Shown: in pieces, positions 9,259-61,521 of the stretch
How the letters are laid out: the number at the start of each line of letters is the position of its first letter
Numbering within the stretch: the first letter of the stretch is position 1
Assembly (NCBI GenBank): GCA_021464415.1
Contig: JAKCWG010000866.1
Span: 105,729 to 169,728, forward strand
From: Lonicera japonica
Lineage: Eukaryota; Streptophyta; Magnoliopsida; Dipsacales; Caprifoliaceae
Length of the DNA: 64,000 nucleotides
Reading direction: 5' to 3'
The notes under the pieces: model-generated
What the model saw: the letters and a program-made list of their open reading frames with translations, nothing else
What the model was told of the DNA's origin: nothing
Databases searched by the model: none
Program-made: the position numbers and the translations under genes

Positions 9259-10045
9259 ATCGTAAAAGCAAGTACAAATCGATTCATTTAGAGGAGTATG
9301 AACAGACATAAGACATGGATAAACACCCCGTCCATCTTAACTAAACTGTCAGAATTTCGAGCTTTCACCATTTAAAATGAAAATTTTCGTGCTTTCACCA
9401 AACAGCAATTCATCCCAAATTTCGGATTTTTGTACCATTCAAAGTCACTGAACAGGAGGAATTTCGAATTTAAGTGAAACCCATTCATTGTAAAATCTAA
9501 ATTTTAAAGTCTGAACAGGGGGGATTTCGAATTTATGTACTGCAAACCCAATAGTGGTTCTTCGTTCTGACCAAGAAAGAGAAACGGGGCTCTGTTGAGA
9601 GAGGGAGGGAGGGGGGACGCTGAGAGAGAGAGTGAGAGAGAGGGGGGCAAGGTGAGAAAGGGGTAATTTGTTGAGAAAGAAGGTAAATTGCTTTGGGTTA
9701 TTTTTTTATTTTTTTTAAAGTTTAAGCTACTTTGTTTGGAAACAAATGTAGGTGGCTTTTCAAGTAAGGATAGCATGGTGTGGATGGTCGGAGGAGGTTG
9801 AAAGTGTGGTGGTGATTGTGTTTTCGTGTGGTCGGACGAGGTTTGTCGCAAGGAAAGATGAGATCGGTGGTTGGCGACGGTGTGTTAAGGTGTTAGTAGG
9901 GTTAAGTGTTAACAAAGTATAAATACATGGAATTTAGTACTACTTTTAGAATTTTAAGGAGTTAAATATAAAAAATTTAGTCGAAATTATAGACAGAGTT
10001 AGAGGAAAAATTGAACTACTTAAAGAACTTCAGAAGAAACACTAA

Positions 10046-10436
10046 GGTTGTGTTTGGTTGCTCACTATTTCTTTTTTTCCCAAAATTTTAAAAACTCAAC
10101 TCAAAATCAACTCTACTTTCACACTTCTCAAAATTTATTTCACTATACTTTCTCTCTCTAAATTTTTTTTTTAAAACGCAATAACTTTAAATCCAAAAAT
10201 CCAAAAATAATAAAAAATATATATTTGAAACCTACTCATCGAGATCTATAAAATAAGATCCATTGTGACTATTTTTTGAAATTTTTTATGTGTTTTTTTC
10301 ATTGGTTGAAAAAAAGTCAAATAAAACCAAATTCACTTTTCAACATAAAAACTCTAACTCAAAACATTCAACCAAACACCAAATTTTTAAAAACTTATCT
10401 AGAAAACTTGTCTAGAAACATTAACCAAACACAACC
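10046..10436. mobile_element. Tourist-like MITE, copy 1 (nested)
   Basis: 391 bp with termini GGTTGTGTTTGGTT and AACCAAACACAACC and flanking TAA on both sides (10043-10045 and 10437-10439). A 3-bp TAA/TTA target duplication is typical of PIF/Harbinger-derived Tourist MITEs. It interrupts the right arm of the long-TIR element, so it is the younger insertion. Related copies lie at 24256-24613 (reverse orientation) and 61147-61521. Confidence 0.75.
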
Positions 10437-10507
10437 TAACAATTTTAGAATATTAGGTAAAGAATTGAATATAAACCGAATTTTAAAGTTTAATTTTCCT
10501 TTTTCCT

Positions 10508-12434
10508 TTATTTTTTATTAAATTTTTAGAAGGTATATAGGAACATAAAAAAGATAGATCTAGATGCTCCCACAACATGTAAGACAAACACATAATATAT
10601 CGAATGGCATAAGAAAACAATGTAAAACAAATTTAAGAAAAAAAAAATATTGAGAATTAAGAGATCTAGATAGGGAAGATGAAAGAAACCTGTTTAATTT
10701 CCTCAGAGGGAGAAGTGAGCTTGACAAAGGTAGTAGAAAGAACAAAGACTAATTGCTTTTTGCTATCAACATTATTTTAAACAAGGAAGATGAAGAAAAA
10801 TACAACTTCCAGCTGTTATATTTGATATTTTTATTCTCAAGTGGATTAGAAAAGACTCTGATTGGTACCTTAAACGCATGGAAACAAAAAAAGGCAGGAA
10901 AATTAAACCACCTTTTTCTGTTTTGAACAATAAGGCCAAAGGCCGAAGGGAACTTTTCACACAGTTATAAATAATATTTTGGACATGAATTATTGGGATG
11001 GGTGCAATCTTTTTTTCCTTTTTTAATTGATTTGAACGTTAAAAACAGATTTTAGTGCTTATTACGGTTAAAATTCTCTGATTGGTACTGGAAACTCGTG
11101 AAAAAAAAAAGGGAAAAAAAAGAAGAAGAAGAAGCCAATCCACCTTTTTCTATTTTGAACAAGGCCAAAGGCAAATGAACTTTTGACACCTTAAACTAAT
11201 ATTTTGGACATGAATTATTGGGATGGGTACAATTTCTTTAGACTGATTTATCCAAATAGTTAACATATTGAAAAAAAAAATTCAATAATTATTTACTTTA
11301 CCTCACCTTTTATTATTTACCTTTTAACCCATTAGAAAATTGCAATTGCCTCTTCTTCTTTTTTTTTAATAAATCTAGCCTACCGTACAAGGTGAAGGGC
11401 CGGAAGTACACCAACATGTTTCAAAGTCGTTGGCCACCTTTAAACATATATTTAATCACTATTTCCATTCCTTCTTTCACTAGAAGTGATGAAGTATATA
11501 ACATACATATCAAATTGTTGAAATACTAAGATCAATTTCCCTCTATAACTTTTCTGTAAAAAAATTTACGCTATCTAATGTATGGACTTTCCTCGTATAA
11601 AAAGAAATTATGAATTTCTCTACACGCAGTGTACAATGAAGATGGAATTAGAAGAGATTGGTGCTATACTCACCTCATTATAGGTTAGCCTTTGAACTCC
11701 GGTTCTCAATTTTTCCGTCCCCCAAATTCAAATATTGGTATACCCTTGTGCCGTTTTTATAAAAAAAATAAAGAGTTTGCATACTAAAAAAATTAATTAT
11801 GATTCAATTGAATAAAAAAATCGATTAATGTGAATACGAAAGAAAATTTATGTTTTCAGTTCCTCTTTCTTCTAGTGAATTATGTGTTTGATAAATGTAA
11901 CTGTTAATGTGAAAAAAATCAGGCCAAAATTTATCTTATAGGGGGTATCCCATTAGAGATAATTCAAATGAATATCAATGGCACAAATGTAAATAAGTAA
12001 AGGTAATAAATTTTATGCTTCTGGTCCCTTTTATTCAATAAATAAAGTTTTGACAAAGTATACACAACTAAATTTTATGTCTTTAGAGCATTTGTTTTCA
12101 ACGAATAACGAGTTGATATATATATATATATACACCTTTTTAAAAAAAAAAGATAAGATCATCCGCGAGCAAAAATTAACCTCACAATAATGTGCTGCGG
12201 ATATATTTCGGAAAAAAATAAAGAAGAAGAAGAAAGTAGGCGAAGAATAAAAAACAATGGATGGGCAGCGTTGCAAACCCGTGGGCACTCCGACAATTAT
12301 TAGTGCAAAGGAACAAAGTCATTGAGTCCATAAAAAATTAATGGACAAACTACACGAGCCCACCAAAAACATAACCGCCCCTTCTTGATAAGAGGAGAGG
12401 GTTGAGACTTAGAGATTTCAGATAAGGGGCGGAC
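10508..12434. other. Intergenic with a direct duplication
   Basis: About 10845-11005 and 11074-11245 are direct repeats, sharing CTCTGATTGGTAC, CCACCTTTTTCT, GGCCAAAGGC and ATTTTGGACATGAATTATTG. A (TA)n run lies at 12115-12132. No gene is supported; short frames across the duplication are not conserved between the two copies. Confidence 0.6.
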
Positions 12435-12446
12435 CACTACACCAGT

Positions 12447-13083
12447 TTGGGTCTTGGGCGACATAATCTATTGCGTATGTCTCCTAAGAGAGTACTTAGG
12501 AGACATACAAAATATATGTCTCCTAAGAGAGGACTTACGAGACATATATTTCATGTGTCGCCTAAGTACTTACTTAGGCGACATATATACTACATATGTC
12601 TCCTAAGTACTTATCTTAGGAGACATATAAATAATATGTCTCCTAAAAAATTACATACACGACATATATTAATTGCATGTCGCCTATGTACATATCTTAA
12701 GCCACATAGAATTCCGTATGTCGCCTAACTACGGTCTTAGGCGACAGAACCAATTGGATATGTCTCCTAAAACAGAACTTATGAGACATATATTTCGTAT
12801 GTCTCCTCATAGAATCACTTAGGAGACATACATGTAGTATGTCGCTTAAGTAAGTATTTAGGCGACATATATATTCCATAAGTCTCCTAAGTATTTATTT
12901 TAGTAGACATACATAATTAGTGTGTCGCCTAAGAGATTTTAAAAATTCGCGGGTAACAAGGGAAGAAAATTTTGCCTGCAAGATAAGGCGGCAAAAAATT
13001 AAACTCTTAGGAGACATAGTAATTATGTATGTCGCCTAAGAGTAAATCTTAGGAGACATACATATATAAGTGTGTCGCCTAAG
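12447..13083. repeat. CACTA subterminal repeat block 1
   Basis: About 28 copies of TATGTCKCCTAAG and its complement alternate every 20-25 bp. They form consecutive hairpins whose loops lie between CTAAG and CTTAG. Two variants exist, TCTCC and TCGCC. In nearly all adjacent hairpin pairs the two arms carry the same variant, so most stems stay perfectly paired. Such motifs bind the element's own regulatory protein in the En/Spm family. The block also produces spurious open frames on both strands. Confidence 0.9.
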
Positions 13084-13387
13084 TGATAACTATAAATTGC
13101 AGAAAATCTCCGTTTTATTCAATCCCTAAATTTTTTCTAATTTTTTATCTCGTTCATCTTTCTCTTGCTATGAACATTTTCTTTTTGTTTTTAATTTCTG
13201 TACGAAAAAAAATTCCATGCAAAATAAGTAAGAGATGGAGAATATCTCACCAAGGCACTCATCGTTTTTTTTCAAATTTTCATAAGAATTATTATTGTTT
13301 TCAATTATTTTCTAACTTTTTAAGTTTTTATCAAAATAGAGTCAAAAGGAACATCATCATCACCATTTTTAATGAGTAATTAATTAC

Positions 13388-14005
13388 CTTCATAAGAATT
13401 GTTGCTCGGAGAAGAATCAATAACTACTTTATAGGCAAGGAGTGGACATGGCAGTTGCAGCTAATACTCCAACAAGTTCACCAGTAGCAGATAAACTCTG
13501 AGGCATAAATGCAGTCTTTACACCATACTCGAATTGAATGACTGAATGGCTACACACATTCCTGACTGTGCCATCATAACAAACAACAACATCTCGAAGA
13601 ATAGCTATCAAGTCCTTAAACAGGATATTTCTTGTGAAAAAAAGAAGCCATTTCTCTAACCAATGTGCTTGAATAGAGTTTCCCCTTATCTGACATTTGA
13701 ACACCCAAGAACCCTATTTGCTGAAGCACCTCGAGTTGTTCTTAGAATTAATTATATCACTCATTGAAGATGAATTCAGAATGAAATTTGTGGTGGTCAT
13801 TTTAACAAGCTTTAGGTGATTCTCCAGCTGAAACTCCAATAACTCGTTGTAAAAGGACCTTAAGTGATGTAGCGATCGAGAGGGAAACATCTTGAATACT
13901 CGTCCAAATATTCTCTTAGAGTTCCTTAGGGATAAAAAAATCTTCCAAACTAACACTAAAACCTTCATAATATAAATTCTCCATAAGCATCGGTTGTACA
14001 TAATT
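13388..14005 (-). pseudogene. NRPE1: Fragment of RNA polymerase V largest subunit (NRPE1-like)
   Basis: Translated pieces match the plant NRPE1 largest-subunit core in the right order but in changing frames. At about 14000-13960 there is EGFSVSLEDFF. Then LRSFYNELLEFQLENH and FILNSSS appear, then QQIGFLGVQMSDKGKLYSS, then an abrupt join from HKKYP to FKDLIAILRDVVVCYDGTV, then VIQFEYG, GVLAATAMSTP and AYKVVIDSSPS. The join skips roughly 60 residues expected in the family. At least three frameshifts and stops break the frame, for example between STP and AYK. The end at 13388 abuts a GT, as at an exon-intron border. Pol V acts in RNA-directed DNA methylation with this subunit as its catalytic core; this piece cannot encode a working protein. 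NRPD1 (Pol IV) is the main alternative, but the spacing and words fit NRPE1 better. Confidence 0.8.
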
Positions 14006-14752
14006 GCTAAAGGGCATTATCAATAGAATTGCCAACTAGCTAGCTAAAATTACATCAACTCCTACTTCTGCAATATACAACTGGTAATTGGCAAACATTC
14101 GTCTATCCATCATCAATTGATGAAGCAGCCAAGAAGGTCTATTTCAACAATCTAACAAAATTTAAGCAATAATAATTCCTTTTCACAATAAGTCATAGTT
14201 TTGACTTGATATGAAAATTCAAATTAAAAATACAAAAGAGAATAGTGTTATTACTAAAATAATTATAGATATTATTAGAATAATACATAACTTTAAAAAG
14301 CAATAATATACTAATATGCTATGTTCTAATTATAATTATTTTAGTAATAAGTTTAGTCATATAGAAATTGAATTTGTTAGTGAAGTTGTGGTACTGATAC
14401 ATTTGTGTTAGGTGTTCCTAGAAAATTATAGGGCCTATCACAAACAATTTTTTTAATTTTTGTTTTTTCAACTCATTGCGGCCACCCTGAATTAGTTCAC
14501 AAAGCTACTATGGATGCAACGTAAGTATGCTTAAAACTTAAAAGTGGACGGAATTGGAATTCATTTGTCCTTTAAACACGAACACCCTTCTATACCCGTT
14601 CGCCACCTAATTCCCTTCTTAAAGATGCTTTGAATTTTTGATTTGCCGGGCAAATTGTGTATTCTAATTATTTGGTATATGAGGATATTAAAAGAAAAAT
14701 AGTTAATTCTTTTATATAAATAAAATAAAATAAAATTAATTTTAAAAACTAA
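14006..14752. other. Spacer inside the CACTA element
   Basis: AT-rich sequence between the NRPE1 fragment and subterminal block 2. It may contain further, unrecognisable NRPE1 intron sequence near 14006-14170. I see no frame or motif to annotate. Confidence 0.4.
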
Positions 14753-14930
14753 AAACCCTTAGGCGACATACTAATATATTTATGTCTCCTAAGATTTTCT
14801 AAAATAATTCAAATTTTCCGCGAAAAAAAGGGAGGCAAAAAAAAATTTACTTATGCGACATAAGTATTTATATATGTTGCCTAAGAAGTAATATTAGAAG
14901 ACATACATAAATATTTATGTCTCCTAAGTT
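14753..14930. repeat. CACTA subterminal repeat block 2
   Basis: About six copies of the TATGTCKCCTAAG motif and its complement (for example at 14758-14770 and 14916-14928). The NRPE1 fragment therefore lies between two motif blocks, so it is inside the element and not beside it. Confidence 0.85.
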
Positions 14931-16172
14931 TGTGGTATAAATCCTTTAGTTCTAGACCTAATTAACCTTTCTCACTCTCACCTCTCTCTCTCAACGCCTC
15001 CATCTCCACGCCGCCCTCATTCCCCAGCCACAATCGACCTCTCTCTCTCTCACCTCCTCCATCTCCATGCTGCCCCCATTCCCCAGGCAACGGGTTTCTG
15101 GATCTTAGCCCTTGGTTGCTCTCACATATATACATCTTTTTCCTCCTCCTTGCCCTAGAGAAGCCGCAGCCACACACACAACACACTACCCGAGCCCTTT
15201 TTTTCTCCTCTCTCTCCCTTGTTTCTCTTTCTTTCTCTAGAAATTTAAAGAACAAAACTCTCCTTAGGCTTTCTTGTATTAATCTAGAGATTAGAGAGAA
15301 TACATATTGAATATTGATCTCTTGTTGTGATTAATTCAAAATTTGGGGGTTTTTGGAACTTAAGATCGAAAGAATTTTTGTGTATATTTTTTCTTCTGCT
15401 CTGCTGTGTGAATTTGGGTTATGGCTGTGCGCAGCGATTTCCTGCTCTGTACCGCGTTCTTGGTGGCATTATACTTGGTTCGGTGAGTCTATTTTCAGAT
15501 CTATTTCCTTCGTTATTAGTGCTAAATTTGTTAGTATTGTTGTTATTTATGCTGCTATTCTGAAAATATTTTGCCACTGCTTTGTAAACTCAGACTAGAG
15601 GTTGTGGATTTAATTTTCCGAATGATCTCATTTTTACTAAATTATTTAAGACTAGAATTCATAGAACATTCAATACATATGCAATATCAGGGATGGCTTT
15701 CTTGACAATACATATGTACATGTAATTTTTATTTGAGCAGCGGGCACTGTGCTTATCATAAATTATAAGAGGGTCAACCAGTTGATACAAACACATAATA
15801 TTTTTGTATCATTGTCAATTCATCTTGATTTGCAGTTCTCAGCTATTATATATAACAATTACCATCCTCCAGTTTCTTACAGTAAATCTTTCATGGGATA
15901 TTACCTCACTCGATATAACTATTAATATCTAGTAGAAGCTGGCAGCACCAGCATTATTTTTTCATTTCACTTTTAAAAGTCTTCAATGAATTTCCTTTTT
16001 TAATGGGGATTAATATGTAATAGGTCGCTGTATAACTAACAAGATTTAAAACAAGCTATAAAGGCAAAAACACGCAATCACACAGTCAAAAACACAAATA
16101 CTTGGAGTGCAAAAATGTTGAAGGCTCCATCTTATGTCTAGTTTGTGTTTGTGTTGTTTGTTTCAGGTTACG
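14931..16172 (+). promoter_or_regulatory. Leader region of the CACTA gene
   Basis: Pyrimidine-rich sequence (14960-15240) with an imperfect direct repeat of about 60 bp (CCTCTCTCTCTC ... CCATCTCCA ... CATTCCCCAG), like a plant core promoter and 5' UTR. It is followed by a probable leader intron ending TTTCAG at about 16166, just before the ATG at 16173. The transcription start and the leader intron donor were not determined. Confidence 0.45.
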
Positions 16173-17430
16173 ATGCCTCCTATTAGGACTAGTGCTATAC
16201 CTAACAGTCGCCAGCATATCAAGGAGCGATTGTTGGCGTTGCAAAACGCCATGCCCACTGCTTCGTCATCAGCGTCCCAGGACTCGCCGGCGTTGCCACT
16301 AGTGGTTTCTGCTTATTCTACTACGGACAGCACCACGACCACCACAGCCAGGCCCGTACGGAGTATTCGATCACAGCAGCAAGCACAATCGTCGGGTAAA
16401 GTTTTTGATTTCTTAATTATATATCGTAATTATACATATGTATCTGATTGACTGACTATTATGCATGTTCTAATCTGTAGGTGTGCAGAGTCAGGCCATC
16501 ACCAGAGACGATGGCAGGAAGAAGAATAAGAGAGGTGTTGTTAGTGGAAAGAAGACGGCGACAATCATTCGATCCCTGGGGAGGTCGGTGCTCAGCTACG
16601 ACCCAGGGGTTCGGGGGATTCTTGATCAAAACCTTGAGGGGGAGGGTAGTGTTAGACATAGGATCCTGCGTGAGGGACCGAATCCCGATGACACACCTTA
16701 ACTACAGCAACATGCCTGTGGAGTTGAGGATGATAGTCTTCGACTACTTATCGGTAAGTGAACTTTACTTTACGGACATTCTTGTTAACTTTTTTTTTTC
16801 TTACTTATCTTTTTTTGACTTAGACTAATGTTTCTACTGTTTTGTTTTGTAGGAGAGCTATATCATCGATCCCAATGATGATAGCCTCATTGGGTGGATT
16901 GAAACAAAGGCTGCCGGGCGCTTTCGAGAATGGAAACACGATTGCAAAAAAGAATGGGATAAGGACAAAGACGGTCCCGTTCCGATTGAGTTCCCACCGT
17001 CCTGCAGAGTGGGAGTCCCTATGCGCCCACTTCAAATCTCAGTCTAATCAGGTATTTTCTTAGAGAACAATTTTTTTTGGCCAAATAATATTTTTTTTGG
17101 GGTTTTTAGAGTTCATATTTTTGGGGTTTCTTTTGAGCCAAGATCGAATATCTTTGGTGTGTTTGAATTGGATCTGTGAGTTTTTCTTTAAGATCTGCGT
17201 TGTGTACTCAACACTCGATTATGCTCTGTTTTGGTTGTTTTGTACTCGATTAATGTTACAAGGTGAGTTCTCTCTATATATATATACCTCCAAATCAATA
17301 ACCATATATTATATATCACATGCAAAACCCAGCCCCAAGGCATGCATAATTTATCAACACGCTTTTGAACAGTTTGTATTATTAATTAGCTTTTACATCT
17401 GCATGGGCATGGGAGAATTGTAGAGTAATT

Positions 17431-17546
17431 GAATGGCAGGGCAATTCTCCTTTGGCAGAACTTAACAAGCTGCATTAATAGTTTTCCATTTTGCATGCAA
17501 AAAGGAAATTTTTGAAATTCTGCCAGAGGAGAAATTGCACCGTCAT
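17431..17546 (-). ncRNA. MIR399: MIR399 microRNA precursor
   Basis: The minus strand at 17457-17437 reads TGCCAAAGGAGAATTGCCCT followed by G. This is the canonical 21-nt miR399 found in several plants. It lies on the 3' arm of a hairpin, the normal place. The 5' arm (17546-17521, minus) reads GGTGCAATTTCTCCTCTGGC and pairs with it with few mismatches and one bulge. Pairing continues outward through GAATG/CATTC, and the loop is about 60 nt. miR399 is induced by phosphate starvation and represses PHO2/UBC24 to raise phosphate uptake. The hairpin lies in intron 3 of the CACTA gene, on the opposite strand, so it needs its own promoter. An (AT)n tract at 17730-17742 upstream on the minus strand could serve as a TATA region. 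No exact GNATATNC (P1BS) site was found between 17546 and 17900. Confidence 0.88.
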
Positions 17547-17912
17547 TCTTCTTCCAGTACCCTTAATTTCAATTGCAGCTTTGCTTTTGCTATTGCTTGG
17601 GGGTATTATGCCCCTTTATCAATTTTTTTAGTATTTAATTAATCAGTGAGATAATCATTAATAGTTCAAACTGCCAAAAAAGAACGCAAGACACAAACCT
17701 GCGAGCGCGTGCAGACAGTCACGCACACACATATATATATATCGACTTCAAGACAGATTTATTTGGTGTAGATATCCCCGGTTAGGACATCTAATCCACC
17801 AAATTTTGCAAAAAAAAAAATTCAATCATTTGCTCCTAAAAATTAAGAGGAGCTTTTTAGAGTGTGTACATATATAATTTATGTGCAAGCAAGAAAATGA
17901 AAGATAGAGAAT

Positions 17913-18581
17913 CTAGAGGCGTACCAATATGGTTGAAGTTGATAACGAAAGACTCTTGATGCTCGATTCTAAAGCAGGGCAATCAATCACAACTGTTTGT
18001 ACAATATCTTCATGCTTCTCTAGTATAATTTCCATAGACAAACTTTTTAGCGATCTAGAAGCGATGGTTAAGGTATCCAAATCGTCCCATTCCTCTCTCA
18101 CTATAGTTAAATCTTCTAGGACGGGACAACCAGAAAATAGATTTCTTGCTGAATCATTGTCCTTGTATAGAACCGACTCTAATTGGAGAACCTTCAAATT
18201 TGGAAAACATGTAGATTCCGTAAGAAAGTTAATAACTATACCTAGGCCTATTAATCTTAAAACCACTAATGAACCACAAGAAAATAGACTCTGAGGAAAC
18301 TCATGAGGTGGGTCCACATAGGAATCTTTAAAAGACACATCCAGTTCACGAATATTCCTATCTATAGCAGCATTTATCCATGATTCAATATGAGAAGGAT
18401 GAATAGCTGAACCTTTGATAGCAACCTTTTTAAGATAGGGCATGTCACCACCCACCAAAACTTGATATACAAAAGTTAAGAACTTACAATATGCTTCTGC
18501 TCTTTTTTCGTCGTTATACCATGCTCCTCCTCTAGGGTAAAAGTCCCACTCGCTTACCTCAAGGGTGCGAAGTACAGTCAT
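17913..18581 (-). pseudogene. F-box/LRR/FBD protein gene fragment
   Basis: An open stretch of 222 residues shows the leucine-rich middle of plant F-box/FBD/LRR proteins: WINAAIDRNIRELDVSF, then FPQSLFSCGSLVVLRL, FPNLKVLQLESVLY, LFSGCPVLEDLTI and LKSLSMEI, ending DCPALES. No F-box precedes it and no FBD domain follows. The last residues after CPALE look out of frame, and a GT donor-like site lies at about 17926. It is therefore an internal exon fragment. Intact family members are substrate adaptors of SCF ubiquitin ligases. It lies in intron 3 of the CACTA gene on the opposite strand, 370 bp from MIR399, so the two may have been acquired together. Confidence 0.75.
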
Positions 18582-19397
18582 GTTGTACCCTGCATAAATA
18601 CTATATTTTCTTCCCCATACACCTGCTCGATCATAAATCTTTATTCCATTTTTATTTGGTGAAAGCTTTAGGGAAAAATGCTCTCAAATCCAAATTTCCC
18701 TAAGATATGGTGATAATTTGAGAGTATAAAAGTAACTTGGCAGCGAAAACATAAAAAAGTCAAGTGTTGGAAGAGTATTTAGGGAGCCCTCCGTTAATTC
18801 ACATTTGGGTAGACTTTAAAGAGGTCTGGAATATTGGAAGATGTTAGGAAAGGGCTGGAGAACGATTTGTTGATAAAATCTGTTTTGCACTATTGTATAT
18901 GTTTCTGATGCTGCATTGTTGTTAATTACTGTTGTTTCTGCTGCATTGCTGAGAATTCACTGCTATTGCTATTTTAAGATTGCTGCGAATCTGTTTGCTA
19001 TTTCTGTGTATCAGTGCTGCGAAAAATAGTCCATACAAGTCTATTTTTATTGCTGCGAAAAACTGTATATAAATTGTTTTTTTGCTGATTTTTTAGACTG
19101 TTTTTGTGCTAAAAAAACTGAATTAAATTTGTTGGTTATTGCTGAAAAATTGAATCTAAATTGTTATTGTTTTGCTGCGAAAATCTATTTGTTTCGTTGA
19201 GAAAAATCTGTTATATATATGATGCCTTGAAAAGATTGATTTCGTGTGAAATTTGTTGTATTCTTTGATTTTGTTGGTGATCTTTTGAGATTTCAAAATC
19301 TGGAACTTATGGAATTTATGTTTCGATACTTTTTGAAAAGTAAACTTTTGGTTTATTATTAATTCGGAGAATCCATTATGGGAATTTCATCTTGCAG
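18582..19397. other. Rest of CACTA gene intron 3
   Basis: About 18880-19300 is T-rich with many GCTGCGAAAA/TTGCTG-like degenerate repeats, as in transposon introns, and ends with the splice acceptor CTTGCAG at 19391-19397. No coding evidence. Confidence 0.5.
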
Positions 19398-20906
19398 GAA
19401 AAGGGGGCGAAAATGTCTTTGGCCCGGAAGTCTGAGAAGAAGAAGGACCACACTGCTGGGAAGGTTCCGTTCGCTCACTTGGCGAAGAAACAAAGGATCA
19501 ATGGCAAAGTGGCTCCTCACTTAGAGGCCTATATGGACGTCTATTCGGCCACCTACCCCGACGGAACGGTAAAAACTTTTACACTTTACTTTTTGGTATT
19601 ATTTAGTTATGCTTACTTTATCTATTAAATTCACCAAGAAAGAATAGTTCCTATATGATATTTGCATGTTTTGCTTTATTGGATATAGAAAGCAGCTTAT
19701 ATAATTAACAAGCAAGGAAGATTACATTAAAAAAAATCTGAATGCAAAGAAATTAATTATTAATACAAAACTATTTAAAAGGATTGCCCAACTTTTGAGT
19801 GTATGTGTTAATTTCAAAAATTTCTTAGCATAAATCAACTTTTGCTAAGAAAGCAGAAGTAACTCTTAGCTAGTAATATAACACTTTGCCCCTTTGGAGA
19901 CAATTATGATTATCATTTATTATACTTTGTCTTTAGACACAATGGATTGAAATGACAACTTGAACTGTCACAATAGGTAAGAACATTCTGAAGTTTCATT
20001 AATAAACACATGAGAAAATTGAATACAATTAGCCAGTTTGGAGAAATTTATAAGTATATGAACCTATGAGTTGAGAGCTTGAATTCGATTTCATCGACTG
20101 TACCTTGCCCTTGCCTTCGTGCGGCTAATTTTACATTTAACTTGTAGACTTTACTAATATGTTATTGTTATTTGTAGGCGAAGGTGAGAGCCGCCACCGA
20201 TGAGGCCGTGGCGAAAATAATGGCTGATCAGCCCGCCACCGAAGAAGGATCTGAGGCTTCGATCTTGCTCCCTCTTGATGAAGAGATCCGTATCATCGAG
20301 AGTGAGATCGGTTCTTCAAGAGGGACTAGGATCCGAGGCTTCGGGAGCTCTGTTGTCAAGGAGCCGAAGAAGAGAGGTCCCGGGGAGCCGGTGCAGATAA
20401 ATATTCAGATGGTGGAACGGATCGCGGAGCAAGATGCAAGGATCGCGGAGCAAGATGCAAGGATCGCGGAGCAAGAGGCGCGACATAAAGCAGAACTTGA
20501 GGCGATGGAAGAGCGAGTACGAGATCTAGTATCGTCGATGATGGCGAATGTTCCTACGGGTGGTGGTAGACCATGAGAGAGGTTTAATGATAGACTAGTT
20601 TATTTATTGACTATTTTGCATCTGTATATATAGACTATTTTGCATATATACTTTGTAAATTTCAACTTTGGCTTGTAATTAGACTTCGTACATTTCAACT
20701 TTCTCTTATAATTAGACTTTGTACATTTCTAGCTTGTTTTTATGTGTGAATGAATTGAATATAGGTTAATTTGTAGATTTTTTTTGTGTGTGATTGAATT
20801 GTATTTGAATGAATTAGTATCAAATTTATAATTCAGGTTGATTTGTAAAAAAGTGTAGGTGTGGCTACACATTAATACAACCTGTTATAAAACAGGCCTG
20901 GAACTT

Positions 20907-21505
20907 CTTAGGAGACATACAAATAAAAGTATGTCGCCTAAGTGGTGGACCAAAACACACTTAGGCGACATACTTAAATTTATATGTCTCTTAAGATTAA
21001 AACTTAGGCGACATAAGATATCATAGTATGTCGCTTAATAGTTCACTTAGGAGACATAAGATATTATCCTATGTCGCTTAAGATTTAACTTAGGAGACAT
21101 AATAAATTAGTGTATGTCGCTTAAGATTTAACTTAGGAGACATAATATATTATCGTATGTCGCTTAAGATTTAACTTAGGAGACATAATATATTAGCGTA
21201 TGTCGCTTAAGATTTAACTTAGGAGACATAATATATTAGAGTATGTCGCTTAAGATTTAACTTAGGAGACATAACCAAATGAGTATGTCTCCTAAGTGAT
21301 TACACTTAGGCGGCATATCCTACTTAGTATGTCGCCTAAGTTGCCAGATCTTACGCGACATTAGTATTATTAGTATGTCGCCTTAGGTCTTAGGCGACAC
21401 CTCTTAGGAGACACCACTTAAGCGACATACCTTATGTCTCCTAAGGCTTAGGCGACATACATCATCTTTTAGGAGACATACCTTATGTCGCCTAAGCCTA
21501 ATTTT
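20907..21505. repeat. CACTA subterminal repeat block 3 (3' side)
   Basis: About 29 copies of the subterminal motif. Between about 21060 and 21275 a unit of about 43 bp (TATGTCGCTTAAGATTTAAC followed by TTAGGAGACATAATATATTA and a few bases) is repeated about five times in tandem, with few changes between units. Unlike block 1, arms here usually combine the TCGCT and GGAGAC variants, so the stems contain a mismatch. The block stops at about 21502 without the expected GTAGTG terminus. Confidence 0.9.
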
Positions 21506-21519
21506 TTACATATATAATA

Positions 21520-21795
21520 TCGATAATATATATGAGTCGAGTTGAGTCGTACACAAAGTTGTTTTATTAAATATTTTAAGTTTATAAATTTTTTTAGAAT
21601 TGACTTGCTTAACTCTCAAGAAAAACTCAAACCAACTTTTAATCAAGCCAAGTTCAAGTAGTTAATTTGATTATATATATATATATATATTTATTTACAA
21701 AGTTTTGGATCTTATCAAGTTGAGCTCGCTATGTCGAATTCCGAAATATGTTCAAATTTGGTACGTTTTTTCACAAATGAATCTCTATTAATATT
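21520..21795. repeat. Dispersed repeat, GAGCCAAGCTC family, copy 2
   Basis: Diverged second copy of the repeat at 5070-5400, same orientation, directly abutting the truncated CACTA end. It includes a (TA)n run at about 21676-21692. The junction may mark where the CACTA terminus was lost. Confidence 0.45.
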
Positions 21796-22054
21796 AGATT
21801 AAGCAAATGGATAAATTTATTTTTTGCTTACGGTTCAAAATCTTGTACAAGTAATTTTTTATTTTTTTGTCATTTTTAGTACCTTAAAAAATGTTAGCAT
21901 TTCTAATTTATGATGCCGTCAATTGAAATTATGTGTCCACCAAAATAGAGTAAGACAATCTTACAAAGTTATATTTATTTTGAAATGTTTTGCAAATGTA
22001 TAATAAATTTTTCCTAGTATACTTTTCCATTGATGTAAATTTTGAAAAGCTCTA

Positions 22055-22144
<90 letters not shown>

Positions 22145-22150
22145 AAGAAG
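22055..22150. repeat. Compound (AAT)n(AAG)n microsatellite
   Basis: About 20 AAT units (22055-22114) run directly into about 12 AAG units (22115-22150). It lies 25 bp left of the MULE end at 22176. The long Leu/Phe-rich minus-strand frame over it is an artefact of the repeat. Confidence 0.95.
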
Positions 22151-22175
22151 ATTGAACGTAGACAGAAAGAGACGG

Positions 22176-23427
22176 GAGTTATTAAAAATTTACCCCCTTG
22201 AAGTTTACTCACTTTTGTACTTCAATCCATGAAATTTATTTTGCATAACTCACATCCTTGAACTTTTATCCCAATTTCACTTTAGTTCAATACCCCATAC
22301 GCCGTTAGCCTCTTGTACAGAAATGGACATCTGCCTTGCACATAGCTACTGTAGCGTGGGTAAAAAGGTACAGCAACATTAGTGAAGCTCATATATCCTT
22401 GTGTTAAGACAAAGCTAGGACAAAATTAAGTGTGGGTGTGAAAAATGGCAGTGTGAAAGTGGAAAAATTAATTGCATTAAGGGTTCCCTTAAAAGTATTA
22501 ATTAGGGGAAAATGAGGAGGGAATTGAGGCCACCTAAAAATGAAGACTTTGGTACTCCAATCTATGGTATGTAAATCAAATCTTTCTCTCTTAAAAGCAT
22601 AAATGTTGGTTGTTGAAATGGGAATCTTCTCTTTAAAAAAGATGTTCCTAGATTTGTTGTACCATTTGTGTATATGTTTTAGAGTGTAAATATGGTCTCA
22701 TTTGTGTACATATGTTAGCTTGCACAGTGAGTGGTTTATATATATATATATGTACATATTATTTTAGGAGAAAGCCAAACATAGTATACGGTGGAGGTAA
22801 AATATATTACATTGATTAATTATTGATTAATATGAGCGTGACAAACTCTCTATCCTCGAATTGTATGCAACGGCTGGGCAGTTGGGTTATCTAGGTTATG
22901 TGAGATTTTACATTTTTATCAATGGGAACTTGAAACTTGTTGAGGTTGATCATGATGTTCTGAATCTTTTAAATTATGTCAATACTGACTTTGAAATTGA
23001 TATGTTTATGGAAATATGATTGTATTACAAAGTGAACAATTGAGAAATCTAAGGTTTATGAAGAAGAGTCGGTGAATGAAGAACAAGTAGTTAATGACAT
23101 GTGTTATGCCTTCTTCAGCTTCATTTGAGCTTTTCCATTTCATTTTTCAATTCCCACACTTTCTGCCTTAGCTTTGTCTTAACACAAGGATATATGATCT
23201 TCACTAATGTTGCTGGACCCTTTTATCCATGCTACGGTGGCCATGTGCAAGGCACATGTCCATTTCCGTCCAAGAAGCTAATGCCATGTATATATATGGG
23301 GTATTGAACTAAAGTGAATTTGGGATAAAAGTTCAAGGACTAGAATTATGCAAAATAAACTTTATGAATTAAAATTCAAAAGTGGGTAAACTTCTAGGGG
23401 GTGTAGGTGGTAAATTTTCAATAACTC
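22176..23427. mobile_element. Mutator-like element with 10-bp target duplication
   Basis: Inverted arms of about 270 bp: 22176-22445 and 23140-23427. The left end GAGTTATTAAAAATTTACCC matches the complement of the right end (GAGTTATTGAAAATTTACC). Flanks are AAAGAGACGG (22166-22175) and AAAGAGATGG (23428-23437), a 10-bp target duplication with one mismatch. The core of about 700 bp has no recognisable gene. Arms, end sequence and target size fit a non-autonomous MULE; its first bases resemble those of the MULE at 39151. Confidence 0.8.
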
Positions 23428-57846: not shown

Positions 57847-58635
57847 CACTGTGTTTGGTGCAATAGTTGATAGGATATTTTATCATATCTGCGTTTAGTG
57901 CAACATGAGACATGATTGCACTTCGGATTAATTATTCTTTTATCTTATTAGAAGCGGATAAAACTATACTGTCCTTATAGGTGGTATTATTTTATCCTAT
58001 GGCTGTCAAAAAACAAAACGAATATAAAAATAAATTTTAATTAATTTATTTTGATCTTCTTCTTTATGCCCTTTAAATAATCAAATTGATTAATAAAAAA
58101 TTTGGCCACTTAAAATCTCAGAAAATCAACTAATAAAATTCATTTATCGTATATATATGGAATTTTTATTTTTCTTTTATTAAACGAAGGTATTTATCAG
58201 AAACATTAATTTAAAAAAAAAATTACATTAGAATTTGAAAATGTAATTAGGCTATTTTGTAAATACTGTATGTAATATAGAAATTTTTTTTGCTGGAAGG
58301 AGTTTTACTAAGCTTATTTTTAAACATGAGAATAACATTAGCAAAAAGGGAAAAAAAAAATGTGGCAACAATTAAAATTGCATGTATTTTTAAAACAAAA
58401 GTGAGCTGTGTTTATATATATCGGGACTTGTAATTCGGGATTCCATCAAATACAAAAATTTATTAAATCTTTATTCGACTAGTCCTTGTCTTGTCTGATC
58501 CCGCTTAATCCTTATCGGATTGATTCCTTTTATATCATATCCACATAATTCTTATCCGACTAATTTCAACTTATATTATATCTGAATTTTTTCTTATCAT
58601 ATCCTATTTCTTAATCCGGTGCGCCAAATACACTC
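57847..58635. mobile_element. MITE-like element, TGTTTGGTGCA ends
   Basis: Left ACACTGTGTTTGGTGCA and the complement of the right end GAGTGTATTTGGCGCA are inverted termini. TA lies just outside each end. About 790 bp; the interior has degenerate TTATCCG/CGGATAA words and no coding sequence. Confidence 0.55.
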
Positions 58636-61146: not shown

Positions 61147-61521
61147 GTTGTGTTTGGTTGCTCACTATTTTTTTTTTCTCTCAAAATTTTAAAATTCAAC
61201 TTAAAATTAATTCTACTTTCACACTTTTCAAAATTTATTTCATTATACTTTATCTTTCTAATTTTTTTTTAAAACACTATAACTTTAAGTCCAAAAATCA
61301 AAAAATAATAAAAAATATATATTTGAAACCTACTCATCGAGATCTATAAAATAAGATCCATTGTGACTATTTTTTGAAATTTTTTATGCGTTTTTTTCAT
61401 TGGTTAAAAAAAAGTCAAACAAAACCAAATTCACTTTTCAACATAAAAACTCTAACTCAAAACATTCAACCAAACACCAAATTTTTAAAAACTTGCCTAG
61501 AAACATTAACCAAACACAACC
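61147..61521. mobile_element. Tourist-like MITE, copy 2
   Basis: Very close relative of 10046-10436 in the same orientation, sharing for example ACCTACTCATCGAGATCTAT and ACATAAAAACTCTAACTCAA, with termini GTTGTGTTTGGTTG and CCAAACACAACC. The 3-bp target duplication is not clear here. Confidence 0.8.

Follow-up and report, generated by a model that had tools for sequence, protein, structure and literature searches.

A MIR399 hairpin captured and spread by a CACTA transposon in Lonicera japonica

Introduction

Transposons are well known to capture fragments of protein-coding genes, and young miRNAs are well known to be born from transposons. A 64,000-nucleotide stretch of Lonicera japonica DNA, called the window here, holds a hairpin of MIR399, a conserved family of phosphate-starvation miRNAs, within an intron of a CACTA transposon gene. 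How did it come to lie there: was a MIR399 gene taken up by the element, or an old MIR399 locus invaded by transposon pieces? And does the element-borne hairpin still belong to a working gene? The genome that we searched is the L. japonica 'Sijihua' assembly, comprising 886,079,548 bases in 967 contigs, with chr1-chr9 corresponding to C1-C9 (accessible text of PMC9130202).

Results

The MIR399 hairpin occupies 17431..17546 on the minus strand, as judged by an Rfam match, its fold and its identity to a donor locus. The mature miR399, TGCCAAAGGAGAATTGCCCTG, lies at 17437..17457 (-) on the 3' arm, just where the initial annotation had read a canonical 21-nt miR399 on a well-paired hairpin. In a scan of the 64-kb window, Rfam model RF00445 (MIR399) matched 17427-17552 (-) with 80.1 bits (E 1.8e-17; cut-off 57), and the only other match over cut-off was the reverse-strand echo of the same hairpin (57.9 bits). 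Folding 181 nt around it, a check that had been suggested from the letters, gave a z-score of -4.47, with none of 200 shuffles as stable. The Rfam match and fold statistics rule out a chance hairpin. In its accessible text, PMC4961011 names a ghr-MIR399c-like L. japonica sequence, without a locus.

The hairpin lies within a CACTA element that occupies 12435..21496 (+) and has lost its right terminus. The left terminus, CACTACACCAGTTTGGGTCTT (12435..12455, +), starts with CACTACACC and is preceded by the three host bases GAC (12432..12434), any partner of which would lie beyond the lost right end. Subterminal repeats, TTAGG[C/A]GACA and its reverse complements, occupy 12435..13100 on the left, and a right subterminal array occupies 20900..21496. 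All 39 exact subterminal motifs of the window fall inside 12435-21496, near the element's ends, which agrees with the CACTA end and CACTA-type repeats of the initial annotation. From 12435 to about 21496, the element matches loci on chr5 and chr8 at 97-99% outside the subterminal arrays. Complete copies sit at chr5 34.19 Mb and chr8 2.05 Mb, two unlinked sites. Both begin CACTACACCAGTTTGGG and finish CAGGTAGTG (ends CACTACACC/GGTAGTG), and 3-bp target duplications flank them, AAG/AAG on chr5 and GTA/GTA on chr8. CACTA/TAGTG termini are thus found at both ends in two of the three copies; the window copy has the left end alone, and by comparison with the chr8 copy about 18 bases are missing at its right.

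The cargo described below is present in all three copies, each at an unlinked place. The three have only short dispersed repeats in common in their flanks, so we rejected the idea that whole chromosome segments had been duplicated en bloc. A site without the element was also found. At chr8 58.99 Mb, a stretch collinear with both flanks of the window insertion (96.5% to window 11281-12435 and 97% to 21502-22196, the right flank matching chr8 58990315-58991373) has 39 bases between the flanks where the window has about 9.07 kb. The left junction is exact: GGGGCGGAC is followed by CACTACACC in the window and by CTACGTG at chr8 58.99 Mb. The right junction has lost the element end together with roughly 35-40 bp of host flank. 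The window insertion and the chr8 58.99 Mb site may be alleles or an old duplication. Mobility, which had been only inferred from the window, is borne out in the evolutionary sense by the composite at three unlinked places, two of them with 3-bp duplications, together with the site without the element. Elsewhere in the window, 10045-10437 and 61147-61504 are each 94-95% identical to one stretch of the chr8 2.05 Mb locus, near 37.4-37.8 kb, by which measure this sequence is a young dispersed repeat.

The element's gene, which is TnpA-like and runs from 16173 to 20576 (+), was recognised by a weak PF03004 match on its joined pieces and by the relatives P0001 and P0002. Its five exons lie near 16173-16396, 16480-16752, 16853-17051, 19398-19569 and 20178-20576 (+). 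The intron between exons 3 and 4 (about 17052..19397, +; GT and AG at its ends) holds the cargo, and the hairpin within it is antisense to the gene. In the window copy, the gene is not open as one frame. Five of its ORFs, each scanned alone, gave no Pfam match over cut-off, and no transposase was seen among the eight window ORFs scanned with Pfam; the joined pieces reached 17.4 bits for PF03004 (E 0.005), below the curated cut-off of 28.7. Six database relatives of the element's protein were found, all from L. macranthoides, and one of them, P0002 (80% identity), bears PF03004. A Transposase_24 identity is therefore no more than suggested for the window copy's gene: the hairpin does lie between exons 3 and 4, as the initial annotation had it, but the Transposase_24 label is weak. 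In the relatives P0001 and P0006, TnpA-like sequence of the element is joined to P450 (PF00067) and DUF247 (PF03140) sequence, as if relatives of the element had captured other genes.

The element also carries a fragment resembling the largest subunit of Pol V (NRPE1) at 13429..13713 (-), within a region of 13420-14120; over residues 30-93 it is similar to subunit 1 of Pol V (E 8.3e-19). This is older cargo, common to many relatives. Because the tail of the element's protein adjoins the NRPE1-like fragment at another locus (L042), we regard the fragment as standing cargo of the CACTA lineage. It is high-copy, with at least 71 matches when 40 of 278 first-look candidates were scored. A transposon family that spreads pieces of a silencing gene raises the possibility of small RNAs against NRPE1. 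Within this fragment, between the equivalents of window positions 13579 and 13584, the chr8 2.05 Mb copy has an extra insert of about 835 bp that consists of two near-identical halves.

The captured cargo in the intron, at 17251..18878 (-), is a mosaic of pieces from a chr1 MIR399 locus and a chr3 F-box gene. Along the minus strand it begins with a distal upstream piece of the MIR399 donor (18653..18878, -; chr1 109093494-109093720, 95% identity). This is followed by a fragment of an FBD/F-box LRR gene from chr3 75.41 Mb (17616..18658, -) in three pieces, 93.5, 97.8 and 94.9% identical to their donor, with PF24758 on the ORF at 17913-18683 (Pfam, E 8.6e-20). Next comes a scrap of about 30 bp from the donor's promoter side (17588..17618, -; chr1 109094831-109094860), and finally the hairpin piece, which corresponds at 97% to chr1 109094976 through the hairpin to about 109095336. 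At the five internal junctions, adjoining alignments overlap by 6, 0, 3, 3 and 11 bases, as would fit microhomology joins.

Searching the genome for further copies of the family and for the original MIR399 locus, as had been proposed, yielded the chr5 and chr8 copies and the chr1 donor. The hairpin occurs four times in the genome, in the three elements and at chr1 109094994-109095174, the latter being one of five MIR399 places within 109073842-109095147. Over 40 kb around the donor, among matches longer than 150 bp, nothing is common with the window beyond the captured pieces and short matches. Relatives of the element possess the intron without the cargo (40 of 98 candidates scored). At least four alignments cross the cargo join, one at chr1 45.0 Mb (92%) and two on C630 and one on chr8 (80-81%). 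The distance between the intron flanks is 63-99 bp at four places and about 280 bp at three, compared with 1,631 bp in the window copy; a further candidate of about 280 bp on chr5 is a weak match.

These data decide the first question. In the reverse history, transposon pieces would have inserted into an old MIR399 locus, an outcome that the initial annotation had named as fatal to its own reading, or else the element would have given rise to the chr1 copy. We found no evidence for either. The chr1 locus is contiguous where the element has the F-box fragment and a 115-bp gap, and it belongs to a five-gene cluster in whose 40 kb nothing else resembles the element. The element copies hold only scraps of that locus, split by the chr3 fragment, and their own flanks are unrelated. 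As element relatives lack the cargo and the chr1 locus is contiguous, the cargo was captured by the element, and the reverse history is barely credible.

Divergence among the copies places capture before spread. Over 4.9 kb, the K2P distances are 0.011 and 0.010 between the window copy and the other two (transitions:transversions 40:15 and 34:15) and 0.004 between the chr5 and chr8 copies (11:10). Distances to the donors are 0.023-0.026 for the hairpin pieces, 0.041-0.046 for the upstream pieces and 0.027 for the window F-box piece. The copies are mutually closer than they are to their donors; capture thus preceded spread. The same substitutions bear on the idea that the cargo is mainly a source of siRNAs, made when both strands are transcribed or when the element is silenced, and that these may act back on the MIR399 or F-box donors. 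The transition excess of the window copy would fit this idea, as would the opposite strands of the hairpin and the TnpA-like gene, and a maize study, in its accessible text, predicts that gene fragments borne by transposons feed the siRNA pool (PMC2773423). However, the chr5-chr8 pair shows no transition excess, and neutral DNA commonly has such an excess as well. We give the siRNA idea a minor though appreciable chance.

What the capture left behind matters for the second question. P1BS is the PHR1 site. The donor has P1BS consensus octamers (GNATATNC) at chr1 109094858 and, 28 bp further on, at 109094886. Of a 24-bp block that contains the second, 22 bases are identical in the paralogue at 109089424, where a similar octamer pair stands 29 bp apart. 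In the 40 kb around the donor, we counted 16 such octamers, or one per 2.5 kb. At the junction of the scrap with the hairpin piece, the element copies are without 115 donor bases, 109094861-109094975, a gap that removes the second octamer wholly and the first except for three bases. Within window 17401-19400 there is a single octamer, at 18350 in the F-box piece. Hence the 'complete-looking' copy of the initial annotation is complete as regards the hairpin, but not as a gene, the promoter stretch with the two P1BS motifs being absent. Since that stretch is gone, we propose that PHR1 no longer places the element copy under phosphate control.

In contrast to the promoter, all three element copies have kept the hairpin and the mature sequence intact. 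The chr5 and chr8 hairpins score 77.4 bits each against RF00445 (cut-off 57), and element hairpins fold at -44.8 to -45.1 kcal/mol as compared with -44.8 kcal/mol for the donor. One loop base separates all three from the donor hairpin. A single base of the 5' arm sets the chr5 and chr8 copies apart from the donor and the window copy (GACGGAGC versus GACGGTGC). Five loci share the mature 21-mer (the donor, the paralogue at 109089424 and the three element copies), so mature reads cannot assign origin, and star or precursor reads are needed; the 5'-arm base of the chr5 and chr8 copies allows the processing of transposon-borne conserved miRNAs to be tested. Constraint on the captured hairpins, sought by column counts in donor and copies, was not found: 2 of 126 columns vary in the hairpin and 8 of 235 outside, too few to test selection.

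A target for such an miRNA exists in the genome. A pattern search for miR399 sites with one mismatch allowed gave 14 matches, six of them in MIR399 hairpins, one on chr1 and seven on chr2. The seven chr2 matches, identical to each other, fall within 385 bp (29689188-29689572), and five of the six gaps between them measure 36-37 or 72 bp. Downstream lies an ORF with a UQ_con (ubiquitin-conjugating) domain (E 3.6e-8). We take this layout, miR399 sites before a UQ_con ORF, to be that of PHO2/UBC24, the identity of this PHO2-like gene, seen in part, resting on the sites and the domain. MiR399 from any locus would meet this target.

The element-borne copies could then be working MIR399 genes, which would raise the miR399 supply, whether or not phosphate controls them, and reduce PHO2/UBC24. 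The donor-like fold, the seven-site target and the mature 21-mer unchanged in three of three copies speak for this, although divergence is too low for the last to be read as constraint. Against it stand the missing donor stretch with two P1BS motifs, the antisense position of the hairpin relative to the element's gene, and the mature plus star sites of a second family of elements, presented below, which vary like the other positions. We consider working genes unlikely.

The second family, which we call B to set it apart from the window's family A, was found at five places: chr3 30.69, chr7 56.84, chr1 65.46, chr1 85.81 and chr9 42.42 Mb. Its copies are mostly 87-94% alike over long stretches (77% in one piece), and they carry pieces, 87-97% identical, of a 1.8-kb stretch with another gene of the cluster, at chr1 109086411. 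A CACTA left end, CACTACAC[C/T]AAAACTCGC, follows unrelated flanks in all three copies examined at length, those at chr3, chr1 85.81 Mb and chr9; stretches of four copies were examined for an intact right end, and none was found. Two copies held only four ORFs of 80-110 aa (lower limit 80 aa). Family B thus appears to be a CACTA-like family that transduplicated a second gene of the same MIR399 cluster. A stretch of the window, 57850-58628, resembles the right half of the chr9 family B element (77.6% over 795 bp) and may be a relic of this family.

One family B hairpin exceeds the Rfam cut-off, with 65 bits; the other four fall short of it, with 53-55. Three of the five copies have the donor's mature sequence, and in the other two it has two changes. 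In an alignment trimmed of unrelated flank, mature plus star positions vary among copies like the rest (6/42 versus 38/221, p 0.82), also when the donor is included (6/42 versus 44/221, p 0.52). By these sequence comparisons, family B is older and drifting. All five copies carry a P1BS-like octamer, GCATAT[G/A]C, where the donor now has GCACATGC. Loss of P1BS in both families was accordingly rejected, and we make the promoter-loss claim for family A only.

Counted together, elements of families A and B contain 8 of 16 MIR399 places at E <= 0.001 and 4 of 12 over the Rfam cut-off, the counts being lower bounds from 45 of 41,891 first-look candidates scored. With such shares inside elements, homology counts may overstate the working family.

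Discussion

A CACTA element of L. japonica captured a MIR399 hairpin and spread it. The account that we favour, and hold to be quite probable on the sequence evidence, is that the element transduplicated a conserved MIR399 gene in the manner of Pack-CACTA, that the composite spread, and that its copies are mostly promoterless, silent passengers, the last because the promoter stretch is lost and family B drifts. Template switching guided by microhomology, while the element was being repaired, may have produced the mosaic, and transposase from another element would have moved the composite. Without its P1BS motifs, a copy would be free of PHR1-driven phosphate control, and it would give rise to authentic miR399 only if transcribed from a foreign promoter, for example through the upstream F-box fragment on the same strand.

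Thus, in this genome, and apparently on two occasions, the intact hairpin of a deeply conserved MIR gene has been copied, separated from its promoter and distributed to other chromosomes. Such capture offers conserved MIR families a way of altering both their copy number and their control. It is very unlikely, in our estimate, that Lonicera CACTAs go further and act as repeated MIR399 vehicles, with promoters changed or dropped, that supply part of the miR399 outside PHR1 control. If they did, plants would differ in phosphate signalling according to which insertions their haplotypes carry.

Tandem MIR399 clusters occur in other plants and grow by local duplication. The chr1 cluster is of this kind and is the source of both captured genes; unlike the members of tandem clusters, the element-borne copies went to other chromosomes inside transposons.

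Pack-CACTAs have reportedly been studied in Arabidopsis (Catoni et al. 2019). As described in the accessible part of a review (PMC13317346), CACTA ends enclose pieces of protein-coding genes, and the proposed mechanism joins neighbouring elements. The Lonicera element resembles these in having CACTA termini around host-gene pieces from several chromosomes, in several copies, and its host-gene donors lie elsewhere, at the chr1 MIR399 and chr3 F-box loci. It differs in that its cargo includes a MIR gene, whereas the cargo described is protein-gene sequence, and in that this cargo lies within an intron of the element's gene, away from the ends where neighbouring elements would be joined.

The literature searched, which missed most subscription papers, held no precedent for a captured conserved MIR gene; none appears in the accessible parts of PMC10004981, PMC13317346, PMC3459959 and PMC2773423. 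The nearest known case is rice miR820, whose genes, according to the accessible text of PMC3459959, lie within CACTA transposons, target OsDRM2 and number five copies in Nipponbare. In both systems, a miRNA hairpin from captured host sequence lies inside a CACTA element that has raised its copy number. However, the target of miR820 is a silencing gene, and the target found in Lonicera is a PHO2-like phosphate gene. Moreover, miR820 is young, confined to rice and made from its own target gene, whereas the Lonicera cargo derives from a conserved MIR gene that was already working.
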